From positions 1-49,803 of the forward strand of contig JABSOX010000038.1 in the NCBI GenBank assembly GCA_013215655.1: DNA of 49,803 bases, written 5' to 3'. Shown here one piece after another: positions 103-41,812 of the stretch. Positions within the stretch are counted from its first letter, which is position 1. Each line of letters starts with the position of its first letter. The stretch comes from Colwellia sp. Lineage in GTDB: Bacteria; Pseudomonadota; Gammaproteobacteria; Enterobacterales; Alteromonadaceae. The translations under genes were made by a program, and so were the position numbers. The notes under the pieces were generated by a model that saw only the letters and a program-made list of their open reading frames with translations, had not been told where the DNA came from and searched no databases.

Positions 103-3100
103 TTAGTTACATGCTCCTAGATCTTCAAACCAGTGTAGAGTTCCTGCAGCTGGAGGAGTCCACATTGCCGTCAGTGTTCTCCAGTTGTGACCCTCGTAGC
201 TGAATGTTTCACCCGTATTATAAATATGTCCTGAAACAAACGCTGCAATACAAGGTGTTCCAGTTGAAGTGTCATTGGTGACTGTTACTGCCGTGACGGC
301 GCTATTGCTGAGCGCGCCATCACTTACCGTTAAGCTAATATTGGCGATGATATTCGCCGAAACGTTGGCTGCAGTAAATGTTGGATTGGCCGTTGTTGTT
401 GAGCTAAAACTACCGGCGCTAGCTGGTGACACACTCCATTGATAGGTCAGTGTAGTGTTGGCATCTGGATCAGTAGAATTTGAACCAGTTAAAGTAATCG
501 TTCCACCTTCTAGTACACTGGCCGCTGAAGATGAAACCACAGCTGTCGGTGCATTATTATTTCCTGAATTACATGAAATTTCAGTCCAGAACCAAGTAGA
601 AGCAGATGTTGGCGCTTCCCAAACACCCGGGTTATTTTGAGCTACAAAACATGAACCGTTGTAAGATACAACATCACCATTGGTTACTACTGTTTGACCT
701 GCAATCCATGGCGTTATAGTTGTTCCGGTTGTGTCATCAGTTATTGTTAATGATGTAGAGGCAGCATTGCTAAGCTCGCCATCACTAACCGTTAAACTAA
801 TGTTAGCAATAACATCTGCCGAAACATTAGCAGCTGTAAAGGTTGGATTAGCCGCAGTTGTTGAACTGAAGCTTCCTGCGCTTGCTGGCGACACACTCCA
901 CTGATAAGTCAGTGTAGTATTGGCATCTGGATCAGTAGAGTTAGCACCGGTTAAGGTAATCGACCCACCTTCTAATACACTCGCCGCCGATGATGAAACT
1001 ACGGCTGTCGGTGCACTATTGTTTGATGTTGAGTCGGTAACCGTTACTGATGTTGAGGCACTATCGTTGAGCTCACCATCACTTACAGCTAAAGTGATAT
1101 TAATATTAGTGTCAGCCGCTACTTCGGCTGCAGTAAACATTGGATTTGCCACTGTCGTAGAGCTGAAACTACCGGCGCTGGCTGGCGACACGCTCCACAA
1201 ATAAGTCAGTGTAGTATTAGCATCAGGATCGGTAGAGTTAGCACCGATTAAAGTAATCGTCCCACCTTCTTGTACACTAGCCGCCGATGATGAAACCACG
1301 GCTGTCGGTGCACTATTGTTTGATGTCGAATCGGTAACTGTTATCCATGTTGAGGCGCTATCGCCAAGCTCTCCATCACTAACAGCTAAGGTGATATTAA
1401 CACTAATATCCGCTGTAACATCGGCTGCAGTAAACGTTGGGTTAGCGATCGTTGATGAATTGAAACTACCGGCATTGGCTGACGACACACTCCACTGATA
1501 AGTCAGTGTGGTATTAGCATCGGGATCGGTAGAGTTAGCACCCGTAAAGGTAATAGTACCACCTTCGACAACACTGGCCGCAGAAGACGAAAGTACTGCT
1601 GTCGGAGCGTTATTACCTGTGTCGCCGCTGTTTACCAAAACGCCATGGGAGGCGGCATTGCTGGATAAACCATTAACACCTTTTAACTGAAAATAAAACT
1701 CAGTGGTCTCGCTAACGTTTGGCAAGGTAATTGAGGTACTTAAACCTGTTGGGTTGGCAATGGTTGCTAGTGGAGAGAGTGGCTCAACTTGGGTCCACTG
1801 ATAATTACTTGTGCCTGAAACACTACCACTTACATTTATCACAGCGCCGCTATTGGCTGTAATATCTCCACTGGCCGTGATGATAGGTCTTGCTGGAATA
1901 CTGATACCACCAAGCTGAGATATATCGCCGGTCATTTCAGAAAACATCTCGGCTGTTAGGTCGACTAACTTAAGGCCAATAAATTCTATTCTAGCCCAAG
2001 AGTCGAAACCTACCTCTAGGTGACCGTCTGCATTTTCCCACGCTTTCAAGTTGGAAACTGCGACATGCCTTTCTGGAACAATTTTGTCGATCATTGGGCG
2101 GAAGCCATTAATGGTCGCTCTAGGGCTCCAACCCATTACGACGGTTTGTGTATGGACAATATAGTCATCCAAGTTTGTGGGTAGGCTACTGCTAGGCACG
2201 CCTTGCAGCAAAATAGATTGATTGCCAGGTAGTGTTAGTATGGTACCTGTCTGGTCGCTGGTACTTGCAATTGTCATCTGAGTAAGTGGCGTTCCTGCCC
2301 ATTCTACGCCGAGTGAAATAAGGTCTTGTCCAACGCTAAAGTCGCTGATAGTCGTCTGTGTATTGCCCGGAGCGTGTTTTTGGATAACGACCTGATCTTT
2401 GCCGCCACCTGTGGTTACAGTATCACTGCCCCAACCTGCAAACAGCATTTCAGGATGTTGTGTTCCAGAAACGATGTCATTGCTCGGTGTGTCAAACACG
2501 GTGTCGTGACCTCTGAACATCTCCATATAAAAGCCAGCGGTAGTGCCTGTCTCATCGCCGGCGTCTGTACCTTCAAAAATTGCGTTAATAACGCCTAGCG
2601 CACCGCGCAAATGGGTGGCCGCTATAATACCGGACATGGTGATGGTGGTAGTTTTGGTGACTTGTGCACCATTTTCCAAATGAATATAGTCATAACTTGT
2701 GCCCAAAATATCTGACCAGTCTTTGCCTCTTGCTTGCATCAGCTCACGAAACTTGATGTAGTTAGAGCGCATAAGGGCGCGAATAATTTGTTCTTGTTTT
2801 GCAGGTATGCGCATATCATCAAATTGATAAATGTCATTCTTGCCGCTAAAAGTACCTTTCCACTCGTTAACTTGGGGTGTTATCAAGTCAACAGTTCCAC
2901 CAGGCCATCTAAAGGTAATTGTCTCTTTGGTATTAGTACAGGTGGCTTCACTCTGTAGACCTGTGCCGATACCAGCCCAGTCGCTGCCGGGACGGGCGGA
3001 ATAATATTTGCTGAGGCCTCTCTCTGTTTCGGGAATGTAAAAGCCGGAGGTGATAAGCGTCGCTTCACCGTTTTGGTAGCCGACAAAGCCCCAAGCATTG

Positions 3101-3501
3101 AGAGAGCTATATTGCATTTTTCTGATCATTCGCTTGCGCTCTGCAAGAGAGGCGTCGTTGTTGTAAAAACGATCAACATCCAATTTTTGGAAATATCTTT
3201 TTACCGAATGAGTTTCACCGACAACATCACCATTACAGGCCATATCTATGCGGCCGGGAATGTCATTGCCGAGGTTATCTTTTTTTAGGTAGCTGTATGT
3301 GCGGGCAGTGTCATCGTTGTAACCCGTTTGGTAACCATTGACTATCGCATCCGTAGTGTCGGGCAGCCCCGATTCAAAACCACGGAGTGCGTCTAAAAAG
3401 TTTGTCATATCGCCGGCACTTGCCAGTTGGGCCTGTCCGCCCATTGTTAAGCATATACAGGCGGTTAAATATTTCATTTTTGCTTTCATATTTGCTTTCA
3501 T
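103..3501 (-). CDS. Large secreted multidomain protein: lysozyme-like N-terminus, RTX-type segment, PKD/cadherin-like repeats, two chitin-binding-type modules
   Basis: A secreted 1132-residue protein. Residues 1-29 form a signal peptide ending QLASA; ATG at 3501 has an AAGG sequence about ten bases upstream, but Met5 or Met9 could also start it. Residues about 31-335 resemble the lysozyme-like domain found ahead of RTX repeats in other marine proteins: a Glu in FESG near the start, then VGYQNGEATLI, then GIIAATHLRGALG. Residues 335-430 contain an RTX-like GWGSDTVTTGGGKDQVVI segment. From about 545 there is one diverged Ig-like domain, then four PKD/cadherin-like repeats of roughly 100 residues (629-727, 727-827, 827-927, 980-1077). 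Two aromatic-rich modules like CBM5/12 lie at 930-979 and 1083-1132. Family knowledge suggests polysaccharide or cell-wall degradation outside the cell. The enzymatic activity is inferred only from resemblance of the first domain. Confidence 0.8.
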   Translation of the reverse strand: MKANMKAKMKYLTACICLTMGGQAQLASAGDMTNFLDALRGFESGLPDTTDAIVNGYQTGYNDDTARTYSYLKKDNLGNDIPGRIDMACNGDVVGETHSVKRYFQKLDVDRFYNNDASLAERKRMIRKMQYSSLNAWGFVGYQNGEATLITSGFYIPETERGLSKYYSARPGSDWAGIGTGLQSEATCTNTKETITFRWPGGTVDLITPQVNEWKGTFSGKNDIYQFDDMRIPAKQEQIIRALMRSNYIKFRELMQARGKDWSDILGTSYDYIHLENGAQVTKTTTITMSGIIAATHLRGALGVINAIFEGTDAGDETGTTAGFYMEMFRGHDTVFDTPSNDIVSGTQHPEMLFAGWGSDTVTTGGGKDQVVIQKHAPGNTQTTISDFSVGQDLISLGVEWAGTPLTQMTIASTSDQTGTILTLPGNQSILLQGVPSSSLPTNLDDYIVHTQTVVMGWSPRATINGFRPMIDKIVPERHVAVSNLKAWENADGHLEVGFDSWARIEFIGLKLVDLTAEMFSEMTGDISQLGGISIPARPIITASGDITANSGAVINVSGSVSGTSNYQWTQVEPLSPLATIANPTGLSTSITLPNVSETTEFYFQLKGVNGLSSNAASHGVLVNSGDTGNNAPTAVLSSSAASVVEGGTITFTGANSTDPDANTTLTYQWSVSSANAGSFNSSTIANPTFTAADVTADISVNITLAVSDGELGDSASTWITVTDSTSNNSAPTAVVSSSAASVQEGGTITLIGANSTDPDANTTLTYLWSVSPASAGSFSSTTVANPMFTAAEVAADTNINITLAVSDGELNDSASTSVTVTDSTSNNSAPTAVVSSSAASVLEGGSITLTGANSTDPDANTTLTYQWSVSPASAGSFSSTTAANPTFTAANVSADVIANISLTVSDGELSNAASTSLTITDDTTGTTITPWIAGQTVVTNGDVVSYNGSCFVAQNNPGVWEAPTSASTWFWTEISCNSGNNNAPTAVVSSSAASVLEGGTITLTGSNSTDPDANTTLTYQWSVSPASAGSFSSTTTANPTFTAANVSANIIANISLTVSDGALSNSAVTAVTVTNDTSTGTPCIAAFVSGHIYNTGETFSYEGHNWRTLTAMWTPPAAGTLHWFEDLGACN
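270..1620 (-). repeat. Near-identical in-gene direct repeats of about 300 bp
   Basis: Four copies of a roughly 290-300 bp unit lie inside the large secreted protein gene. The same boundary text, centred on ACACT(G/C)GCCGC, recurs near 525, 980, 1283 and 1572. The first two copies are separated by an extra 150 bp that encodes the first chitin-binding-type module. The high nucleotide identity suggests recent expansion and a risk of copy-number change or assembly collapse. Confidence 0.8.
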
Positions 3502-30418: not shown

Positions 30419-32704
30419 TTATTCTTGTGTCATCACGACCACGTCGGTGCGGTATTTATCTAGTTTCGTATAATATGCTGTTCTTCCATCATCACTAACA
30501 CTCAAAGTTCGACTTTCTTCTGTATCCATGACTTCTATCGGATATAACTCTTCAACCAATCCTGAAGATAAATCCATTTTAAATAACATTTTTAACTTTT
30601 TAACACTAGAATCTGCAGCATAATAAATTACGCCTAAATGCGCATCCCATGTAAAAGTATTTACCGTAGGCAACAGCATTTTATCTTTTGGCTTAGTCGA
30701 TGTTAAATGATCAAGAAGACGGGTGTGAACTTTCCTTGTACCAATTTTTTGATAATGTAAATTATTTCCATCAATAATATCAAATTGAGCAATAGGATGA
30801 CTCAATATAATTCGTTGTTGAGCTGTTGATAGATTCTTCTCCATAACGTGCCAAACATCATCTATTTCCTCATACCAATACATAAACAAACCATCTTGTG
30901 ACCACTTTCCCATTTTTACATTATTTGTTGAATCGAACAGTATAGAGTTCCCTAACTCCATATCAAACTGAACCATACGGCTTCGACCTTTATTTAATAT
31001 ACTCACTAATAACTGTTTGCCGTCAGATGACCACGTTGGTTCGCTTAACTTATCATTGTCTTTAACCTGAAATAATAAAAGATTAGCACGCGTATCTATT
31101 GTTCGAATCCACAGTGAGTCGACCCCAGATTCTGTTGAAATAAAAGCAAGAGACTTATTATCAGGAGCAAGTGTTGGATAATTAGTTTGTGGCATATTTT
31201 TAAGAAATGGTGCAGATATCAACTCACCATCTACACCTTGCACCGAACGCCAAATATTATATTGAGCCTCTCTTTCGATATAAGCAAACTTATCATTTTT
31301 TCGATCATAATCAAGACTACTGCTGTTGATCTCAACTAAAAATGTTGTTTCTTTGGAATTTAAGCCGACCTGCCAAATACCCTGTTCTTGACTACGTACG
31401 ATAAGATAATAAAGTGAATTACCCGCTTCACTCCAAACAACCTGACTCACTTCTTCACCAGAGGAAGTTACCTCGGTGAATTCTCCAGATAATGTATCAA
31501 CCAAACCAATCACCCATAAATTATTATTGGGTTGAAAGTGCACGACAGCAATAGAATTTCCATCAGGAGAAAAACGAGGCCATAAATACCCCGAAGCATT
31601 TTCAGATGGTGCTAATAAGGTTTTATTTTTACCTGTATCTGTACTAACAAGTACCAAGCTTTCAATTTTTTTAATGTAGTTAAATATATTGGTGACGAGA
31701 TACTGGCCATCTGGAGACCAATCCAAAGCATCCGTTTTTGACATAGGACATTCAGTTAATGTCTTTACTGTAGCTTCTTTAATGGTATAAACATTAATCG
31801 TACAACCTGTACTTTTAGAGAAGTGTTTATAAGCTATTTGGTTACCATCAGGAGAAAATGTCGGTGCGATATCATAAGAAGTTTCTTCATCTTCATGTGC
31901 AGCAGAGATGGTTATTAAAGACTTATTTGTAATTGATTGTAGTTTAACTCTTTGTCCCAAATTAGCGCGTAAATTACTCGCATAGGCCAAATACTTACCG
32001 TTAGGGCTAAAACGAACATTTCGCTCCATATCATCATCAAGCGTTAAGTAATTATTATCGTAAGTAATAGTAGGTTCTGCTGTTAATAATATTGCTTTAT
32101 TACTGGTGATGAAAAATGCCAAGAAAATTAAAGAGGCGACAATAAAAATAAACAATACAAAACGTTTTTTCATATTATTCGTTTTAACCATCGGAGGATC
32201 AGAAGGCGATAATGCTGTTGCTCCTTTATCTACTGAAGTCAATATAGAAGTAAGCGACTCCGTTGATAACTGTTGAGAAGGTATAACGTCATAATTTTCA
32301 TTCACTTTTGTTTCAGGCACTTTTGTTTTAGGCAATAAGGTTTCGTCATCCCTTTTTTCTTCTGAATGTTGCCAAGCAACGCTCTGTTTTAACCGATAAC
32401 CTTGTTTTGTTACTGTCTCAATGGTGTGTTGTTGACGAGCAGAGTCAGAAAAAACTTTTCGTAAATCAGAAATGGCTCGACTCAATACCATATCAGAGGT
32501 ATGCAAAGTCCCCCAAACCGCTAAAAGCAATTGTTCTTTTGAAAGTGTTTCGCCCTGATGTTTCGCTAATTCAATTAGAACCGCCAACATTTTTGGCGTA
32601 ATTAATGTTTCTTTATCTTCATGAATAACCAAATTTCTCGAAGGGAGAACAGCATAATTTCCTATTGAAAAACTTGGTTCTTTAGTGGCTATATCTTTAG
32701 TCAT
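30419..32704 (-). CDS. ToxR/CadC-like membrane transcription regulator with TolB-type propeller
   Basis: 761 residues. Residues 1-110 are an OmpR-type winged helix (LIELAKHQGETLSKEQLLLAVWG, then VLSRAISDLRKVFSD and IETVTKQGYRLK). A polar linker leads to one membrane helix at about 178-197 (RFVLFIFIVASLIFLAFFIT). The periplasmic part, about 205-761, has repeated FSPDGNxIA and WSPDGQYL motifs of a TolB/WD40-like beta-propeller that can bind a ligand or protein. The architecture is common in Alteromonadales. It is divergent from the first NHL gene with 173 bp between them. The phased TCAA repeats in this gap recur upstream of two more NHL genes, making it the leading candidate regulator. Confidence 0.88.
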   Translation of the reverse strand: MTKDIATKEPSFSIGNYAVLPSRNLVIHEDKETLITPKMLAVLIELAKHQGETLSKEQLLLAVWGTLHTSDMVLSRAISDLRKVFSDSARQQHTIETVTKQGYRLKQSVAWQHSEEKRDDETLLPKTKVPETKVNENYDVIPSQQLSTESLTSILTSVDKGATALSPSDPPMVKTNNMKKRFVLFIFIVASLIFLAFFITSNKAILLTAEPTITYDNNYLTLDDDMERNVRFSPNGKYLAYASNLRANLGQRVKLQSITNKSLITISAAHEDEETSYDIAPTFSPDGNQIAYKHFSKSTGCTINVYTIKEATVKTLTECPMSKTDALDWSPDGQYLVTNIFNYIKKIESLVLVSTDTGKNKTLLAPSENASGYLWPRFSPDGNSIAVVHFQPNNNLWVIGLVDTLSGEFTEVTSSGEEVSQVVWSEAGNSLYYLIVRSQEQGIWQVGLNSKETTFLVEINSSSLDYDRKNDKFAYIEREAQYNIWRSVQGVDGELISAPFLKNMPQTNYPTLAPDNKSLAFISTESGVDSLWIRTIDTRANLLLFQVKDNDKLSEPTWSSDGKQLLVSILNKGRSRMVQFDMELGNSILFDSTNNVKMGKWSQDGLFMYWYEEIDDVWHVMEKNLSTAQQRIILSHPIAQFDIIDGNNLHYQKIGTRKVHTRLLDHLTSTKPKDKMLLPTVNTFTWDAHLGVIYYAADSSVKKLKMLFKMDLSSGLVEELYPIEVMDTEESRTLSVSDDGRTAYYTKLDKYRTDVVVMTQE

Positions 32705-32763
32705 ATGTTTCCAAGTAAGTTTTTCAATAATAAGAAGTTATTTATACTAACAATAAAAAAAAT

Positions 32764-32800
32764 TCAATAAAAAATCAACAAAATACAAAGTCTCTTTCAA
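32764..32800. promoter_or_regulatory. Phased TCAA repeat operator, site A (upstream of the first NHL gene)
   Basis: TCAA occurs at 32764, 32775 and 32797, that is 11 and 22 bp apart. The 16-base block TCAACAAAATACAAAG (32775-32790) is identical to sites B and C. The site lies 78 bp upstream of ATG 32878 and 60 bp upstream of the divergent regulator start, so it could control both. Confidence 0.65.
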
Positions 32801-32877
32801 GACGGTTACTACGGAAGTTCATAAAATATGAAGCTAATCAACTAGTAAAAAAATTATACCGAACAGGATCTCACCCA

Positions 32878-33729
32878 ATGAAATTAAGATATAACCTTGT
32901 CAGAAAATGCTTAATAACCATGGCTATTTCATTTTCATCACTATCAACAGCCATCAACTATAGCGTTCATACAATAATGCCATCAAGTGGTAATGATGCA
33001 CTTCGCTTTGATAAAAGTGGCAATCTTTATGTATCTTACTCTGGCGATTTTGGTGCAGCCGGTTTATCAGGAACAGTGGTTAGAAAAATAGCAACAGACG
33101 GCAACATATCAACTCATGTCAATGATTTAAGAGGCTCATTGGGTACTGACTTCGACTCCAACGACAACATGTATGTTGCCAATTACAATACCGGTGAAAT
33201 TAACAAAATAACGCCCTCTGGTGAATCGTCTCTATTTATTGATATGGGTTCAGCAGGTTTTGCCAGTGGCATTGTCATCAATTCAAAAAATGAAATATTT
33301 GTCGCCAGTTATGCCGGTAATGTTATTTTTAAAGTTAGTATTAGTGGCACTAAACAGCTATGGATAGAAGATAAGCGGCTCGATGGTCCTGTTGGTATTG
33401 TATTAGACGAAAGCGATAATATTTATGTGGGAAATTACAACAATGGCAGAGTATTTAAAATAGATAACAATAAAACCATCACTGAATTAGCTTCTGCTCC
33501 GGTAGGTCTTGGTTATATTACCTACGCAAAAGGTATAGTTTACGGCACTGGTTACAGTAAAGATATTATTTACAAAATCCCCACAGACGGCAGTCCTACG
33601 AGTGAATTAGAAGGTTCAGCTCAAGCGGGTTTTAAATTTCCTAACGGTATTACCACCAGTCGCGACGGTAAAAGACTTTATGTCTCTAATTATCAGAATA
33701 ATAAGATCATTGTTATTGAAGATTTTTAA
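32878..33729 (+). CDS. Secreted NHL/SMP-30-like beta-propeller protein 1
   Basis: 283 residues with a signal peptide ending near LSTA (residue 24). The mature part is built of about six NHL-type blades: LRFDKSGNLYVSYSG, DFDSNDNMYVANYNTGEINKITPSGES, IVLDESDNIYVGNYNNGRVFKID, ending DGKRLYVSNYQNNKIIVIE. AGGA lies ten bases before ATG 32878. It has no sorting tail, unlike its paralogues at 34240 and 37018. NHL proteins bind proteins or sugars, or act as lactonase-like enzymes; no catalytic residues are assigned. It follows a divergent membrane regulator, its likely controller. Confidence 0.8.
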   Translation: MKLRYNLVRKCLITMAISFSSLSTAINYSVHTIMPSSGNDALRFDKSGNLYVSYSGDFGAAGLSGTVVRKIATDGNISTHVNDLRGSLGTDFDSNDNMYVANYNTGEINKITPSGESSLFIDMGSAGFASGIVINSKNEIFVASYAGNVIFKVSISGTKQLWIEDKRLDGPVGIVLDESDNIYVGNYNNGRVFKIDNNKTITELASAPVGLGYITYAKGIVYGTGYSKDIIYKIPTDGSPTSELEGSAQAGFKFPNGITTSRDGKRLYVSNYQNNKIIVIEDF

Positions 33730-33766
33730 GTTTAAATTTGATTAACTGTCTAAGTTTTGCATTCCC

Positions 33767-33799
33767 AATAACTCTTAAACGACCTGTTTAAGAGTTATT
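33767..33799 (+). terminator. Perfect 14-bp hairpin after NHL protein 1
   Basis: AATAACTCTTAAAC (33767-33780) and GTTTAAGAGTTATT (33786-33799) pair without mismatch around a 5-base loop, 38 bp after the stop codon. The T-run after it is short. Confidence 0.75.
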
Positions 33800-34076
33800 T
33801 CAAAAATAATACAGCTGAAAGCCACATCACCCAAATTGAATTATCGCTAATTATTAACAACTGATGTTCACAAGCTCCACATTTTTAACAAAAAAGCTTA
33901 AAGTTAACTAACACTATAAGAGGTTTATCAGCAGTAAGCAGTCAAATCTTTACGTCCGTTTATGCACAGCTGGCCTAAAAAGCAATCAAAACCTCGTCAA
34001 TAATTAGTATTCCTCACTTCCGCTCAGTGATTAAAGTGAATATTGAATTTAAAGTCCAACCGTCTGCTGTTGGCAG

Positions 34077-34103
34077 AAAAGCAGTCCTTTAGTGACTGCT
34101 TTT
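34077..34103. terminator. Bidirectional hairpin
   Basis: AAAAGCAGTC (34077-34086) pairs with GACTGCTTTT (34094-34103) around 7 bases, with A and T runs on each side. It may be a second terminator for converging transcripts, or a leftover from a lost gene. Confidence 0.75.
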
Positions 34104-34194
34104 TCATATCTAGGAAAGGACCACAATGGTAGTAAGTGTGATCATATTCTGTTGATGATTGGTAAACTCAAACATTATGCGTAGTCACATAAAA

Positions 34195-34216
34195 AACCGG
34201 CTATCTACTACCGGTT
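34195..34216 (-). terminator. Terminator after the 34240-36405 gene
   Basis: AACCGG (34195-34200) pairs with CCGGTT (34211-34216). On the minus strand the hairpin is followed by TTTTTTATG. It is 24 bp beyond the stop codon of the double NHL protein. Confidence 0.7.
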
Positions 34217-34239
34217 ATTTGTAAATTAAAATGACATAC

Positions 34240-36405
34240 TTATTTTTTAATTTTACGACTCTTAAAGCGTCCTAATAGTAATATACCCATCAACATAATA
34301 ATTGAACCAAACCCACTAGTACCACCACTACTGCTTTTTGAAACAACTGCCATTTCTACCGCTGCTGCAGGCGCTGTGCTAACGTTAAGTGCAACTTTAA
34401 CCGCTTGTGTACTTTTACCATTGGCGCCTGTATAAGAATAACTATAGCTATCTACACCGGTATAATCTGTATCGGGTATATAAGTTATACCCTGTGCACC
34501 GTGAACCGTTAATATACCGTGGTTTGCAGGTACAACTATGGTCAAATTCAACGCACTGATATCTAAATCAACAATATCATCGTTTGCAAAAACATCATTG
34601 GTCGTCGCTCTATTTTCAATAACATCAAATTGATCTGCCTGTGCAAAACTATTTGAATATAGTGGCATCGCTGCTGTTGCTAGTGATATTTTTCTCAGTT
34701 GATTAGGTGAACAATAATCCGTAATAAAGAGCTCATTACCCGTTGTTAAAGCCGCAATACCATTTGGACAGGCAAATTTTGCTTGATCACCATCACCATT
34801 TGTTAAACCCCCTTCACCCGTACCCGCTAACGCTAAAACATCACCTTCACGGCTAATACGATATATTTGGTGTCCGCCAATACCTGAGGCATAAACATAA
34901 CCTGAAGCATAAGTAATATAACCGATAGTAAAGTATTCAGGTCCATCAATATGCGCTAATAATGTTAATTCACCACTATTAGAAATCGTGAAAATATCGC
35001 CATTATTGTAATTGCCAACATGTAGTAGCCCGTTTTCATCAAAAACAATGCCCACAGGTCCATTTAATAATGGATCTTCACTAAAAAGTGATACCTCGCC
35101 ACTCGTGTTAATTCGTAATATTTGATTGGCATTATAAGAAGCAACAAAAATATTATCAGCACTATCTATGGCAATACCTGCAGGCACAACATCAAGGCTG
35201 GCAACGGTAGTAACGGTACCATCACTGGCGACCGATTTTATCGACATATCATTTACATTAGCAACGATAACATTACCATGAGAGTCAACAGCATTGCCTA
35301 ATGGTCCGGCTAATTGATCCGTTAAAATTGAATGAGTACCATCGGTATTCACTTTGATAATACTGGTACCATCAAATTCCGTATATTGAGGATTAAGTGT
35401 ATTGCCAACATTAGAAATATAAACGGTGCCATCTGGTGCCACTGAAACGCCATCATTAGCAGCGATTTCAAAACCATCTATTACAGTAGAAACAACAGGT
35501 TGTATTCTTAAAGAACGAATAAGGCCATTGCCATTAACACCGCCGCCACAGTATTCATTCCAGTAAAGCATATCGCCGTATGGATTTGCGGTAATACCGT
35601 TTGGACAGGCAAATGTTGCCGTTTCCGCAGCACCGTCATCCAAACCGGGGTCGCCTGTTCCTGCAATTGATGTGACTACACCTTCCAAAGTGACTCGATA
35701 TAGCTGATGAGAGCCAATACCCGATGCATAAATATTGCCCGATGCATACGTTATATAACCAATATTAAAGAAATCAGGTCCTTCAATATGAGCAAGGAAA
35801 GTAGCAACACCTTCTGCTGATATCGAATAAATATTACCGTTATTGTAATTTGCGGTATAAAGGGTGCCCATCGCATCAAAAACGATACCGACAGGACCAT
35901 TTAATTGCTCGTCGTCAGAAAATAAACTCACCTCTCCTGATGCCGTTATTTTGGTGATGTTATTGCTATTATAAGAAGCAACAAAAAGGTTGTTGTCATT
36001 ATCTATCGCTACTCCAGCTGGATAAACATCCAATTGTGCAAACGTTGTTGTTATGCCATCAGGGCTTACTTTTTTAATGGTTTGATCATTAATATTTGCA
36101 ACATAAATATTGCCCATACGATCAACGGCATTACCTAAAGGGCCTTGCATTTCTTCAGACAATACCGAGATATTCCCGTTTGCCGCTATTTTGATCAACC
36201 CAGTACCGCTAAATTCAGTATATTGTGGATTTAAGGTATCACCTACATTAGATGCATAAATATTACCCTTTGTATCGATACTCAGACCGTCATTAACCCG
36301 AAGAGGAAAATCAGTATAAGCTGTATTTACGGTAGTAGCAGCCGCTTGTCCGCAAGATAAAATCAGTAATGATTTCATCGTTAATTTTGATAGTTTTCTT
36401 AACAT
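34240..36405 (-). CDS. Secreted double NHL-propeller protein with GlyGly-CTERM tail
   Basis: 721 residues when started at ATG 36405, which has GGGATAAATAAC upstream; a TTG 11 codons earlier is less likely. A signal peptide (MLRKLSKLTMKSLLILSCG to AAA) is followed by two homologous NHL propellers of about 290 residues, each with blades such as DNDNNLFVASYNSNNITKITASGE and VFDENGLLHVGNYNNG. Each ends in an ATFACPNGI or AKFACPNGI blade. A cadherin-like domain (about 595-680, YIPDTDYTGVDSYSYSYTGANGKS) precedes the tail SSSGGTSGFGSIIMLMG, a hydrophobic helix and RFKSRKIKK. This is a GlyGly-CTERM signal normally cut by rhombosortase after type II secretion. Confidence 0.85.
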   Translation of the reverse strand: MLRKLSKLTMKSLLILSCGQAAATTVNTAYTDFPLRVNDGLSIDTKGNIYASNVGDTLNPQYTEFSGTGLIKIAANGNISVLSEEMQGPLGNAVDRMGNIYVANINDQTIKKVSPDGITTTFAQLDVYPAGVAIDNDNNLFVASYNSNNITKITASGEVSLFSDDEQLNGPVGIVFDAMGTLYTANYNNGNIYSISAEGVATFLAHIEGPDFFNIGYITYASGNIYASGIGSHQLYRVTLEGVVTSIAGTGDPGLDDGAAETATFACPNGITANPYGDMLYWNEYCGGGVNGNGLIRSLRIQPVVSTVIDGFEIAANDGVSVAPDGTVYISNVGNTLNPQYTEFDGTSIIKVNTDGTHSILTDQLAGPLGNAVDSHGNVIVANVNDMSIKSVASDGTVTTVASLDVVPAGIAIDSADNIFVASYNANQILRINTSGEVSLFSEDPLLNGPVGIVFDENGLLHVGNYNNGDIFTISNSGELTLLAHIDGPEYFTIGYITYASGYVYASGIGGHQIYRISREGDVLALAGTGEGGLTNGDGDQAKFACPNGIAALTTGNELFITDYCSPNQLRKISLATAAMPLYSNSFAQADQFDVIENRATTNDVFANDDIVDLDISALNLTIVVPANHGILTVHGAQGITYIPDTDYTGVDSYSYSYTGANGKSTQAVKVALNVSTAPAAAVEMAVVSKSSSGGTSGFGSIIMLMGILLLGRFKSRKIKK

Positions 36406-36515
36406 GTTATTTATCCCGACTTGCAAGTTTTGATTCAATGTGTGTAATTTGAATTTATCTTTGTTTTTTAGTTAAACTGAACGGAATTAATTTAGTGCTT
36501 TAAGTCATTAACGTA

Positions 36516-36552
36516 TTGAAAGTAACTTTGTATTTTGTTGAAATTTTGTTGA
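36516..36552. promoter_or_regulatory. Phased TCAA repeat operator, site B
   Basis: On the plus strand TTGA occurs at 36516, 36538 and 36549, the mirror of site A with the same 22- and 11-bp spacing. The block at 36526-36541 is the exact complement of TCAACAAAATACAAAG. It lies 111-147 bp upstream of the 36405 start. Confidence 0.65.
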
Positions 36553-36658
36553 AAGCCCTTTCTACATGGGGAAAACAAAAAACTGAAATGAGAAGTAGAG
36601 AATACCGTGATTGTTTTTACTTTCTGTCAGGCAAAGGTCTTTATAACGGAATTTTGAT

Positions 36659-36870
36659 TATACCATTTCGTCTAAATAGGTGGTCAATGATTGCGCAGAA
36701 AAAAATTAACAAGAGCAAGGCGCTTGATTGAGTAATAGCTGGCTATTAGGATTGAAAGCACAGGTTTTTAGTTCCAGACAAAACCTAAGTACTCACATCC
36801 CTGTGAGCAACGCAGCACTTGTTGATTTTAACAAGCAAGAGTGAGCAAATATTTAGATGGATTGGTATTA
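36659..36870. mobile_element. MITE-like repeat, copy 1 (212 bp)
   Basis: The ends are imperfect inverted repeats: TATACCATTTCGTCTAAATA on the left, and on the right the complement reads TAATACCAATCCATCTAAATA. The inside is about 90% like the copy at 42992. Copy 1 has about 49 extra bases (36761-36809). There is no coding capacity. The structure is that of a small non-autonomous element. Confidence 0.75.
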
Positions 36871-36905
36871 ATATCTAAACTGAAGGATTGATTACATAAA
36901 AATAA

Positions 36906-36938
36906 AAAGGCTTACAATTCATAAGAAAATAAGCCTTT
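36906..36938 (-). terminator. Terminator after the third NHL gene
   Basis: AAAGGCTTA (36906-36914) pairs with TAAGCCTTT (36930-36938). On the minus strand the hairpin is followed by TTATTTTT. It lies 45 bp beyond the TAG at 36983 of the original, unshifted frame. Confidence 0.75.
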
Positions 36939-36982
36939 ACATTAGATTTTACGTTCTACTTTACTGGCTAAAATCGTTTTGG

Positions 36983-37070
36983 CTATTTCTTAAATGCTCT
37001 GAACAAAAACAACAACATCAAAACTGAATAACCAATAGTTCCACCACCTGATGATTTTTCCACTTTTGGT
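36983..37070 (-). pseudogene. Out-of-frame GlyGly-CTERM tail of the third NHL gene
   Basis: In the frame next to the annotated one, the minus strand reads PPKVEKSSGGGTIGYS, then a leucine-rich helix and RAFKK before TAG 36983-36985. This is a complete GlyGly-CTERM sorting signal like that of the 34240 gene. The annotated frame instead ends in a Gln/His-rich tail at 37018. The switch point lies in the ACA/ACC repeat tract at about 37060-37135. Confidence 0.8.
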
Positions 37071-37986
37071 GGTGCTGTGGTTGTTGCTGTGTTGTTGCTG
37101 GTGTTGTGGTTGTGGTTGTGGTTGTGGTTGTGGTTGTTGACGTTACTTCATTAAGATTTTCGATAACGATAATTTTGTTACTTCGAAAGTTTGATACATA
37201 AAGCTTGGTTCCATCCGCATTGGCTACTATGTCATTTGGAAAGTTAAATCCGCCTAGTGATGACCCTTCTAATTCGGTAACAGCTCCACCATCAGTGGGA
37301 ATTTGATAAATTCTATTGCTATCTATACCTGTGGCATAAACCATACCATTCGCATACGTTATATATGCGTTACCTTGATTATCTGGTGAACTATCTAGTT
37401 CCGTAACAGATTTAGCTCTATCGATTTTAAATATTCTGCCATTATTATAATTCCCCACATAGATATTTTCATCTTCATCTAGCGCAATTCCTACGGGAGC
37501 ATTAAGGCCATTACCTTGTAACCAAATTTCACTTTCACCACTAGCCGAAACTTTATAAACGACGCTATCATTAAAACTGGTAACAAACAGCTCATCTTGT
37601 TTATTTATAACGATTCCATTAACATTAATTATATTACTGAATCGACTCTTTGTACCTTCAGGTGTTATTTTTGTAATTATTCCCGAGTTATAATTAGCAA
37701 CGTACATATTTCCCATAGAATCAAAATCAATGTCTAGAGGCCCAGCTAAATCAGAAACCGCGATAGTTATTTCACCATCAATGGCTATTTTATATATTTT
37801 ATCACCCGTTAAGTTGCCTGCAATATATGAGACATATAAGTTACCCTCAAGATCAAAAATTAGCCCATCATTACCGCTATTAGGCATAGTAGCAAACGTA
37901 CTATAGTCTACAGCTGACGTTATCACTGAAAAACCTGTAAGTAATGCAAAAGTAAAACTTGCGATAAGTGTGTTTTTAAACTTCAT
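37018..37986 (-). CDS. Secreted NHL-propeller protein 3, probably frameshifted at its C-terminus
   Basis: 322 residues in the present frame, with a signal peptide ending at TSAV (about residue 26). The propeller is closely related to protein 1: STFATMPNSGNDGLIFDLEGNLYVSY, IDFDSMGNMYVANYNSGIITKITPEG, IALDEDENIYVGNYNNGRIFKID, TKLYVSNFRSNKIIVIEN. A run of 12 Thr follows, encoded by a hexamer repeat, then a Gln/His-rich tail. The neighbouring frame encodes the proper GlyGly-CTERM tail, ending at 36983. As read, the protein would be secreted but not sorted. The start has AAGAG upstream. A gene switched on and off by indels in the tract is possible, but a hexamer change alone would not shift the frame. 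Confidence 0.75.
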   Translation of the reverse strand: MKFKNTLIASFTFALLTGFSVITSAVDYSTFATMPNSGNDGLIFDLEGNLYVSYIAGNLTGDKIYKIAIDGEITIAVSDLAGPLDIDFDSMGNMYVANYNSGIITKITPEGTKSRFSNIINVNGIVINKQDELFVTSFNDSVVYKVSASGESEIWLQGNGLNAPVGIALDEDENIYVGNYNNGRIFKIDRAKSVTELDSSPDNQGNAYITYANGMVYATGIDSNRIYQIPTDGGAVTELEGSSLGGFNFPNDIVANADGTKLYVSNFRSNKIIVIENLNEVTSTTTTTTTTTTTTPATTQQQPQHHQKWKNHQVVELLVIQF

Positions 37987-38160
37987 TTTATTTTATCTCT
38001 TATAGTTATAAATTTACTTAACATTCTCTTTATTCGCCATTTTTGTATGAAAATAAGGAGAAACTCTAAACAACCGTAAGATCAAAACTGATTGGCTATT
38101 TAGCAAAACTGCTACCACTTTGAACAATTCATGAATGTAAAATATGACGACAATAAAGTC

Positions 38161-38197
38161 TTGAAATTATCTTTGTATTTTGTTGATATTTTGTTGA
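38161..38197. promoter_or_regulatory. Phased TCAA repeat operator, site C
   Basis: TTGA on the plus strand at 38161, 38183 and 38194 has exactly the spacing of site B. The block 38171-38186 is again the complement of TCAACAAAATACAAAG. It lies 175-211 bp upstream of the start at 37986. Confidence 0.65.
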
Positions 38198-38435: not shown

Positions 38436-39326
38436 TTAGCTTAATCTTGACGCACTAGCCATTTCAACAAAGCTATGCAAATACTCGATTTCCACATCTT
38501 TTTCACGCAGTCCAATAAATATTTGTTTATAAATACCCTTTTTACCTAATCGCAACGCTTTGATTGGTAAGGTTTGCGTATATTGCTCAACTAACCATGC
38601 CGGTAATGCAGAAACACCACGTCCACTTGCTACCATTTGCAACATGATATCTGTGGTTTCAATGACCTTATGTTTATAAGGGCTACATTGTGCAGGCAAC
38701 ATGAACTTGCTAAAAATATCTAAGCGTTCCATTTCAACAGGATAGGTAATTAAAGTTTCATTGCTCAATTGCTCTGGCATTACATATTCCGCGGAAGCTA
38801 ATGCATGATTTTGATCAACAACTAAAACTAACTCGTAATCAAACACCGGGGTATAAACCAAACCGCGTTTAAATAATGGATCGGGTGTTACTAAAGCATC
38901 AATTTCATGGCTAAATAAAGCGCCAATACCACCAAATTGAAATCGTTGTTTGACATCAACATCAACATCTGACCATTTTTTTAAATACGGTGAGACCACA
39001 GTTAATAGCCATTGATAACAAGGATGACACTCCATGCCAATTCTTAACGACCCTCTTCGCCCCTGTGATATTTGCTGCATCAACTGTTCAGTATGCTCAA
39101 GTTGCGGCAATATTCTATTGGCAAGAGATAACATCGACTGTCCTGCTTGTGTAAAACGTAATGTCCTTCCCTCTTTTGACCAAATTTTAACGCCTAGCTG
39201 TAACTCCAGTTTTTTAATCGCATGACTCAGTGCCGATTGCGTTAAACATAAAGAATCTGCAGCTTCGGTTAAAGTACCTAATCGATCAATCTGTCGGATA
39301 ATCGCTAAATGGGTACGTTCAATCAT
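38436..39326 (-). CDS. metR: MetR, LysR-type activator of methionine synthesis
   Basis: 296 residues. The N-terminal winged helix is TLTEAADSLCLTQSALSHAIKKLE, with the SALSH core usual in MetR. The effector domain starts with RGSLRIGMECHPCYQWLLTVV, the MetR hallmark (IExHxCxQWL), where homocysteine acts as co-inducer. It is divergent from metE with 200 bp between, the standard metR-metE arrangement. Cytoplasmic DNA-binding protein, expected to activate metE and repress itself. Confidence 0.93.
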   Translation of the reverse strand: MIERTHLAIIRQIDRLGTLTEAADSLCLTQSALSHAIKKLELQLGVKIWSKEGRTLRFTQAGQSMLSLANRILPQLEHTEQLMQQISQGRRGSLRIGMECHPCYQWLLTVVSPYLKKWSDVDVDVKQRFQFGGIGALFSHEIDALVTPDPLFKRGLVYTPVFDYELVLVVDQNHALASAEYVMPEQLSNETLITYPVEMERLDIFSKFMLPAQCSPYKHKVIETTDIMLQMVASGRGVSALPAWLVEQYTQTLPIKALRLGKKGIYKQIFIGLREKDVEIEYLHSFVEMASASRLS

Positions 39327-39424
39327 TTTATCTCTCGCTCTTTTTTCTTAACTCATTATGAGTAACTTAATTATTGCTAACCAATTATTGCAAACTCGGC
39401 TAATGTTAATTCAGCACCGATACA

Positions 39425-39437
39425 TGAGTGAAATTCA
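39425..39437 (+). promoter_or_regulatory. Candidate MetR box between metR and metE
   Basis: TGAGTGAAATTCA matches the MetR consensus TGAA-N5-TTCA with a single mismatch. It lies about 90 bp upstream of metE, a suitable distance for activation. Confidence 0.5.
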
Positions 39438-39526
39438 TTTATCCATGCATTTATACCATTATTATTCATTGATTAGTTTATTTATCATGCCCTCAGACAA
39501 TAAATACCCTTAACGAGAATAAATAG

Positions 39527-41812
39527 ATGGCTACATTACATAATCTTGGCTTCCCAAGGATCGGCACTAAACGTGAACTTAAATTTGCATTAGAAAAGTT
39601 TTGGCAAAAGAAAATACCTGTAGAGCAATTACAAAATACTGCACAAGAATTACGTAAGAAACATTGGCAACATCAACAAGCATTGAGTTTTGTCCCTGTA
39701 GGCGACTTTTCATTTTATGATCAAGTCCTTGATACCAGTTTTTTATTAGGTAATGTGCCAGATCGCGTAGAAAATCTTGAAGGTACAAACTTAGATAATT
39801 ATTTTCGTATCGCTCGTGGCCGCTCAGCTATTGATACCGGTTGCAGTTGTGTACACGCAGGTGAAATGACCAAGTGGTTTGATACAAATTATCATTATAT
39901 TGTGCCTGAATTTACCGCTGACACAGAATTTAATTTAGATTGTAAAACATTGCTTAAACAGATTTCAGAAGCCAATATTCTTGGCCACAAAGCCAAACCT
40001 GTATTATTAGGACCTGTCTCCTATTTGTGGCTTGGTAAAGAGAAAGACCAATCTAATAAAATTGATTTATTAGATAAAATACTGATTGCTTACACTGAAT
40101 TATTGGCTCAATTAGCAACACGTAATGTTGATTGGGTACAAATTGATGAGCCGATATTAGTCACTGAATTAGATAATGACTGGCAACAAGCAATCACTAA
40201 AACCTATCAATTGTTAGGTAATAGTCCGATAAAAATCCTACTAGCGACTTATTTTGGTCAATTAAAAGAAAACTTGCCATTGTTATGTGAATTACCTGTA
40301 GCAGGTGTTCACCTTGATGCGATTAATGCTAAAGATGAAGTCAGTACATTAATTGATAATTTAACAACAGACAAAAATGGCAATGAAAAAATTGTTTCAT
40401 TAGGAATAATAAACGGTCGAAATATCTGGAAAACTGACATTATAGCTTTACTGAGTTGGTTAGAGCCCGTAGCAGAACAATTAGGTAAACGTTTATGGTT
40501 AGCCCCTTCATGTTCGCTGTTACACGTCCCCGTTGATCTTAATAATGAAGAAAAACTCGACCCAGAAATTCGCAGCTGGTTAGCCTATGCCATACAAAAA
40601 TTGGCCGAACTTGAATTAGTCGGCAAAGTACTTAATGACGGTAGAGCAAGCTGTGTACAAGCATTAGCCGATAATGCCGCGGCCATTGAAAGTCGTCGCA
40701 GTTCATTACGTGTACATAACCAAACAGTTAAGAAACGTGTTGAAGCGATTAGTGACGATATGAGTAATCGACAATCACCTTTTGCTGAGCGTAATACACT
40801 ACAAAAAGGCATTTTTAATTTACCTAAATTTCCAACCACAACTATCGGCTCTTTCCCACAAACGACAGAAATTCGCCAAGCTCGCCGCCAATATAAAAAT
40901 GGTGATATTGACCAAGCAAGCTACCAAAAACTCATGCAGGAAGAAATACAACACTGTGTCGATATTCAACATCAATTAGGTCTAGATGTATTAGTTCATG
41001 GTGTACCTGAACGTAATGACATGGTTGAGTACTTCGGTGAACAACTTGATGGTTATGCCTTTAGTCAATTTGGTTGGGTACAATCATATGGTTCTCGTTG
41101 TGTTAAACCGCCGATTATTTTTGGTGATATCTCGCGTCCACAAGCCATGACAGTAGAGTGGAGTAAATTTGCACAAACATTAACAAATAAACCAATGAAA
41201 GGCATGTTGACGGGTCCTGTGACAATTTTGAATTGGTCATTTGTACGTGATGACCAACCACGTTCAACAACATGTTTACAACTTGCACTAGCAATTCGCG
41301 ATGAAGTATTAGATCTTGAAGCTGCAGGCATTAATATCATTCAAATTGATGAAGCCGCATTACGAGAAGGTTTACCATTACGTCGTGCGCAGTGGCAAGA
41401 ATATATCGATTGGGCAATACAATCTTTTAAACTGAGCGCCAATGGCGTAAGTGATAAAACACAAATTCATACACACATGTGTTACTCAGAATTTAACGAC
41501 ATGATCGCAGCAATTGCAGACATGGACGCCGACGTTATTACCATAGAAACTTCTCGTTCTGATATGGAACTACTTGACGTTTTTGATGAATTTAACTACC
41601 CCAATGATATTGGCCCCGGCGTATATGATATTCATACCCCAAATATTCCAACGGTTGAATACATGGTTAACTTAATGAAAAAGGCGGCAAAACGTATTCC
41701 AGCAGAAAACTTATGGGTAAACCCCGATTGCGGTTTAAAAACCCGTGGTTGGGCTGAAGTAAAACCCGCCTTAGAAAATATGGTTAAAGCAGCAATACAA
41801 TTGCGAGGTTAA
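39527..41812 (+). CDS. metE: Cobalamin-independent methionine synthase
   Basis: Transfers the methyl group of 5-methyltetrahydropteroyl-triglutamate to homocysteine in the cytosol. The 761 residues are a normal length. The start [26 protein letters not shown] is the family's N-terminus. The C-terminal catalytic half has the zinc ligands in THMCYSEF (His, Cys) and [11 protein letters not shown] (Cys), plus the homocysteine-binding GSFPQT and [14 protein letters not shown]. The gene is divergent from metR and probably depends on it. A hairpin terminator follows. Confidence 0.97.

Follow-up and report, generated by a model that had tools for sequence, protein, structure and literature searches.

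A 49,803-bp stretch of a Colwellia sp. genome (assembly GCA_013215655.1, contig JABSOX010000038.1, positions 1 to 49,803; hereafter the window) carries three genes for putatively exported proteins with NHL-type propellers beside a gene for a long CadC-like regulator, and raises the question of whether a membrane-anchored protein could run a regulon of its own through the phased TCAA repeats upstream of these genes. Such a regulon had been proposed in an initial annotation of the window. We consider it probable that the 761-amino acid regulator is a ToxR/CadC-type membrane activator with a propeller as its sensor and a small private regulon of NHL genes; the repeats themselves are confirmed, and the core of the earlier interpretation, in which a membrane activator acts through an operator of its own, is likely right. 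The apparent operator grammar found across the family of paralogous regulators is a larger result than the window regulon itself.

Phased repeats upstream of the NHL genes

The block TCAACAAAATACAAAG has three exact matches in the window (n = 3), at 32775-32790 on the forward strand and at 36526-36541 and 38171-38186 on the reverse strand. Each copy lies upstream of one NHL gene and reads towards that gene, so that the positions and common orientation annotated initially were confirmed, and the whole 5.56-Mb genome (G000) holds these three copies only (reversed control pattern, 0). The blocks belong to longer operators: operator 1 (32764..32800, forward strand), which separates the divergent regulator gene and NHL1 and has TCAA units at 0, 11 and 33 bp; operator 2 (36516..36552, reverse strand) upstream of NHL2; and operator 3 (38161..38197, reverse strand) upstream of NHL3. 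The first unit of site 1 is TCAATAAAAAA, a correction to the earlier reading. The identical 11- and 22-bp phasing claimed for all three sites was borne out, with three matches to TCAA-N7-TCAA-N18-TCAA in the window against 0.01 expected from window shuffles. A genome scan with this loose pattern, which had been suggested as a check, recovered the three sites but was unspecific, giving nine matches in G000 and four for the reversed control; the body TCAACAAAAT is present in only three of the nine, namely the window sites. Specificity thus comes from the site body and not from TCAA spacing alone.

A fourth copy of the system was found in the same genome, on contig C19, as a second regulator/NHL pair (L046, 8431-11860). 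The regulator gene of this pair is broken off by the contig end, and what looks like the rest of it is found where contig C103 ends (L047).

Alignment of 11 operator sites over 41 columns gave 20 invariant columns, and a profile (R1) built from these sites was searched against 16 genomes, from each of which the top 150 first-look candidates were scored. The 11 matches at E ≤ 3e-4 were all training sites, and therefore the informative part of this search is the absence of other sites: the next best match had an E-value of 0.0156, and in the eight genomes that lack both the regulator orthologue and the operator the best value was 0.0265. The motif is accordingly not scattered randomly, as its three exact copies in the genome all stand at NHL genes and R1 found no comparable others. 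By this result the regulon appears to comprise four NHL genes in G000 and, in the seven other genomes with the operator, a single operator-bearing NHL gene each, and the new regulon proposed at the outset stands as a tiny dedicated set of this kind.

The position of the operators relative to the promoter is also conserved. A −10-like hexamer follows 21 bp past the last TCAA of each window operator, reading TAAAAT for operator 1 (32822..32827, forward strand), TAAATT for operator 2 (36489..36494, reverse strand) and TACATT for operator 3 (38134..38139, reverse strand). In seven sequences from genus g1 and G052, a genome described below, the hexamer starts at base 22 after the last TCAA, with a total match of 29/42 where shuffles reached at most 28 (p = 2e-4). 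By reading, no −35 match was seen at the usual place, and the last TCAA occupies that spot. Phasing and promoter position are as expected for an activator of the OmpR/PhoB type, and the site tracks the regulator across genomes with the exception of G052.

The repeats could alternatively be duplication remnants, or AT-rich DNA with no regulatory role. The DNA is indeed AT-rich, and sites 2 and 3 also have flanking DNA in common, so that both probably go back to the duplication of a single upstream region. However, only five of the 40 columns after the last TCAA are invariant in the seven sequences, namely A and C at positions 2-3 and three bases (T, A and T) within the −10-like hexamer, and genus g14 keeps the operator though its promoter DNA looks less AT-rich. 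We therefore give a remnant origin very little weight.

PhoB binds 11-bp head-to-tail repeats beside the −10 element, where it replaces the −35 element. The window operators resemble the Pho box in all of this, with the same direct-repeat layout at the −35 place before a −10 hexamer, and their core TTTCAA is related to TGTCAT; they could accordingly be read as Pho boxes bound by PhoB, placing the NHL genes in the phosphate-starvation regulon. This seems highly improbable, given that the phoBR-like gene pair of G000 itself has TGTCATAAAACTGTCAT upstream, with a different core, and that R1 found nothing strong in the eight genomes without a regulator orthologue, where PhoB is assumed to be present. 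Membership of the Pho regulon was rejected on the grounds that the sites read TTTCAAC or similar and the TGTCAT repeat sits at the phoBR-like genes. The window regulator differs from PhoB in having a membrane helix and a propeller and no receiver domain.

The regulator and its putative propeller partners

The regulator gene (30419..32704, reverse strand) encodes a winged helix, a linker, a membrane-type helix and TolB/PD40-like propeller strands. An OmpR-type winged helix at the N terminus is indicated by Trans_reg_C (PF00486; 52 bits, cut-off 26.2), and the AlphaFold2 model (mean predicted local distance difference test score, pLDDT, 83) places the winged helix at residues 12-111, a low-confidence linker at 114-179, a helix at 180-201 and strands at 215-760. 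A hydropathy peak of 3.0 starting near residue 182 agrees with the single membrane helix predicted at 180-201. The annotation of a CadC-like membrane regulator is supported by this domain match and predicted architecture, and the gene is divergent from NHL1, with site 1 inside the shared intergenic region, as had been described. The closest PDB sequence match of the DNA-binding domain (32372..32671, reverse strand) is CadC (5ju7, E = 2.6e-14), and its recognition helix, TSDMVLSRAISDLRKVF, is identical in all eight window-type regulators compared. Equivalog models for CadC (73.7 bits, cut-off 400) and TolB (90.3 bits, cut-off 343.15) both scored the regulator below their cut-offs; with TolB it shares the repeat type alone. 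Foldseek with the whole regulator returned generic double-propeller proteins at low template modelling scores. Cysteines 301 and 319 are invariant in 22 aligned relatives and suggest a disulfide in the propeller, which is presumably periplasmic.

All three NHL proteins have signal-peptide-like starts and NHL/Vgb-type propellers. NHL1 (32878..33729, forward strand; 283 amino acids) is predicted to fold as a propeller (mean pLDDT 90), and its nearest solved folds include the Vgb lyase, the extracellular domain of PknD and the designed protein Pizza6. NHL2 (34240..36438, reverse strand; 732 amino acids), whose true start is probably a later ATG, has two NHL/Vgb-like regions and a Big_9 domain, and NHL3 (37018..37986, reverse strand; 322 amino acids) has an NHL propeller. 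The Pfam model Vgb_lyase is above its cut-off for NHL2 and, barely, for NHL3, whereas NHL1 falls below it (42.3 vs 50) and the NCBIfam Vgb models score the NHL proteins far under their cut-offs.

A GlyGly-CTERM-like tail was recognized by eye in nine of 12 aligned NHL proteins including NHL2, is absent from NHL1 and its orthologue in G004, and lies in another frame in NHL3. NCBIfam matches to five NHL proteins at E ≤ 1 included none to a GlyGly-CTERM model. Tails of this type are reportedly paired with rhombosortase (PMC3237569, PMC6219818), and the rhombosortase model TIGR03902 was above its cut-off in all four genomes searched against none of 14 controls. The end of the NHL3 gene (window 37018-37140) contains about 10 copies of a TGTGGT-type 6-base repeat before the out-of-frame tail, which reflects either a sequencing error or a real loss. 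A locus search with NHL1 gave one distant contig (L013).

We envisage the 761-amino acid protein as an inner-membrane one-component regulator of the ToxR/CadC type, whose cytoplasmic winged helix would bind head-to-tail to TCAA units phased at 11 bp in front of the NHL genes. Because the last unit stands at the −35 position, 21-22 bp before the −10-like hexamer, the regulator when bound most likely takes over the −35 contact, activating transcription as PhoB does. The propeller probably receives the signal, for which the NHL proteins or their ligand had been suggested initially, and the outputs of this private regulon would be the exported NHL propeller proteins, most with a putative rhombosortase-type tail.

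The predicted arrangement of an N-terminal OmpR-type winged helix, one membrane helix and a C-terminal sensor domain is that of CadC of Escherichia coli, although a propeller takes the place of the CadC sensor domain. Known CadC and ToxR sites are described as short and AT-rich (PMC5430869, PMC8517210); the consensus proposed for CadC is TTAxxxxT, with two sites arranged head-to-head (PMC5430869), in contrast to the head-to-tail TCAA units at 11 bp found here. ToxR shares a membrane-anchored winged helix (here predicted) and a direct-repeat operator, but the tox-box is given as TNAAA-N5-TNAAA with a period of 10 (PMC8517210), compared with TCAA-N7-TCAA and a period of 11 in the window, where no separate tox-box scan was run. 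Nothing relevant on CadC-type regulators with propellers was found in the literature searched, which left out most subscription papers.

Co-occurrence in relatives

Within the genus, NHL relatives (E ≤ 0.001) were found in three of six genomes, and a regulator relative (E ≤ 1e-60) in the same three. In the family, an orthologue of the regulator at this threshold was present in seven of 295 genomes (best three candidates per genome scored), and the same seven were recovered from 395 genomes (best two scored); all seven carry an NHL gene with the operator upstream. Relatives of the NHL proteins (E ≤ 1e-20) occur in 12 of the 295 genomes, comprising these seven, G052 (53% identity) and four others at 34-35% identity. 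By reading and ungapped alignment, the operator stands upstream of 11 of the 12 close NHL genes, in eight genomes, G052 among them. Inspection by eye of 500 upstream bases did not reveal it at the four remote NHL genes, on which R1 was not run. One of the remote genes, in G224 (L081, 3601-7684), stands in tandem with, and upstream of, a gene for another CadC-type regulator, so that an NHL protein and a membrane regulator are paired there independently.

The regulator might also bind these sites and repress the NHL genes, or mainly control its own promoter, as in the window about 60 bp separate the regulator start codon from site 1, which falls in the divergent region that the two genes share. 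In G003, however, an extra gene stands between regulator and NHL gene, and the operator is found at the NHL gene, away from the regulator, which argues for NHL, rather than the promoter of the regulator itself, as the target that is conserved. Moreover, the −10-like box that lies at a fixed distance is the one facing the NHL gene, and the last unit falls on the −35 position; we hold repression or autocontrol to be unlikely. The intervening gene in G003 (L045, 8562-9695) encodes an exported protein that is esterase-like by eye, with no family search made, and has upstream only a weak TCAA/TCAT pair.

Several observations do not fit activation through a uniform private operator and weigh against it. 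In G052, an 85%-complete genome, operator and NHL gene are present, yet scoring all 53 candidates revealed no orthologue of the regulator (best E 2.3e-17); in G003, a second NHL gene is without operator. The operators themselves vary, with 12 bp between the first two units on C19 and an extra unit in the G003 operator and in three of four g14 sites. The −10-like hexamer agrees with TATAAT at four to five of six positions in g1 and G052 and at only three of six in g14, where it starts at base 23, 1 bp further. Finally, self-match at 11 bp misses p ≤ 0.025 in three of the eight window-type regulator-adjacent regions, one of which is the G003 region that lacks the operator.

Putative operators of the paralogous regulators

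The regulator has many paralogues: its matches at E ≤ 0.001 comprise 45 stretches of G000 and 43 of G003, several per gene in places. A first set of 65 long CadC-type regulators, including 22 from G000 and 24 from G003, was assembled from 58 stretches picked by eye from the match list (L171-L174 gave none) and nine others (the window, L044-L046, L076-L079 and L081); matches on short open reading frames (ORFs), mostly of response-regulator size, were excluded. The regulators were divergent from their upstream neighbour in 62 of 65 cases, and with the three non-divergent regions and one divergent region under 60 bp set aside, 61 regions were analyzed. In 56 of these the divergent neighbour has a hydrophobic, signal-peptide-like stretch near its start.

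The 11-bp period recurs across this set. Self-match at p ≤ 0.025 was found at shift 11 in 27 of the 61 regions (mean z 2.84), compared with 10 at shift 10, seven at shift 22 and 0-5 at other shifts; excluding the window type, 22 of 53 regions have it at shift 11. The most enriched of the 64 triplets in the divergent regions is TCA, which on the sense strand of the neighbour forms 72 pairs at 11 bp, 46 at 22 bp and 24 at 33 bp against a mean of 11 (up to 22) at other distances, with six antisense pairs at 11 bp. Seventeen control divergent regions without such regulators gave, on both strands, eight TCA pairs at each of 11, 10 and 22 bp against an average of about four, and a mild 11-bp excess may thus exist in control regions also. 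The hexamer TANNNT stands at offset 22 in eight of the 29 non-window-type regions with a TCA train (background 0.63 per offset), or in five of 22 at cluster level, for which P is 2.3e-4 before and about 0.009 after correction for 40 offsets in a comparison that was not planned in advance.

The base that follows TCA appears to vary with the recognition helix. At cluster level, helices with Gln-Arg (QR) go with G in eight of 10, Asn-Arg (NR) with T in four of four and Asn-Lys (NK) with C in two of two, while Ser-Arg (SR) has one A and one T. The association gave a permutation p of 5e-5, post hoc, on 23 of 38 clusters and with three or four of the majority letters ties or near-ties; 15 of the 38 are without any 11-bp TCA pair. 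At L122, L127, L145 and L163, regulators with the helix LTN(A/V)IWNLR adjoin genes for exported proteins of 789-969 amino acids, possibly outer-membrane receptors. An AT-rich unit repeated at 11 bp replaces TCAN in three of these four regions, and L163 has no significant repeat.

Predictions were fixed before a held-out set was fetched, comprising 39 regulators from four genomes in four genera (matches on ORFs of at least 520 amino acids, window-type one excluded); one of these genomes, G126, had also given the first set a window-type orthologue, which is outside the 39. Divergence from the upstream neighbour was found in 24 of 39 cases, below the predicted >80%, and strict divergence is therefore not universal. 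The predicted 11-bp period was recovered, as the 24 divergent regions together have 13 sense-strand TCA pairs at this distance against 0-5 at others; antisense pairs numbered five at 11 bp and 0-5 elsewhere. The majority unit was TCAG in all three divergent QR regions with pairs; a fourth QR case, non-divergent, ties between G and T, and a fifth is without a pair. No 11-bp pair was found for the six NR and two NK regulators. A single held-out SR case gives C/T, so that the link of Ser-Arg to A is not general, and KQ repeats its first-set letter C, whereas TQ gives A/G against T in the first set. TANNNT was found at offset 21 in two of six regions, at offset 34 in two of six and at offset 22 in none. 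The 11-bp period and the QR letter thus hold, and the rest of the helix code is tentative.

From both sets we derive a more general proposal, on which our judgement is evenly balanced: that bacteria of the family run an expanded set of privately wired membrane regulators, each of which couples a propeller sensor to a single adjacent exported-protein gene by way of an operator [TCAN-N7]n-TCAN-N21-TANNNT. In each unit, the fourth base would be set by the recognition helix, with Gln-Arg selecting G and, more tentatively, Asn-Arg T, Asn-Lys C and the Ser-Arg of the window A.

Two further features of the window lie outside this system. A tandem repeat of 297 bp in 2.9 copies (753-1605) falls within a long ORF (103-3501, reverse strand), and at 38436-41812 a gene for a LysR-type regulator is divergent from a gene resembling cobalamin-independent methionine synthase, which we take to be a MetR/MetE-like arrangement.

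A whole paralogous family thus shows a sharp operator grammar of unit, period, strand and distance to the −10 element, and in this ToxR-like family helix residues are linked in part to bases. If this is true, it would amount to a readable recognition code by which targets could be predicted from sequence, a prediction directly testable for unstudied regulators that number some twenty or more in each genome. It would also provide a handle on the function of the propeller sensors and their NHL partners.

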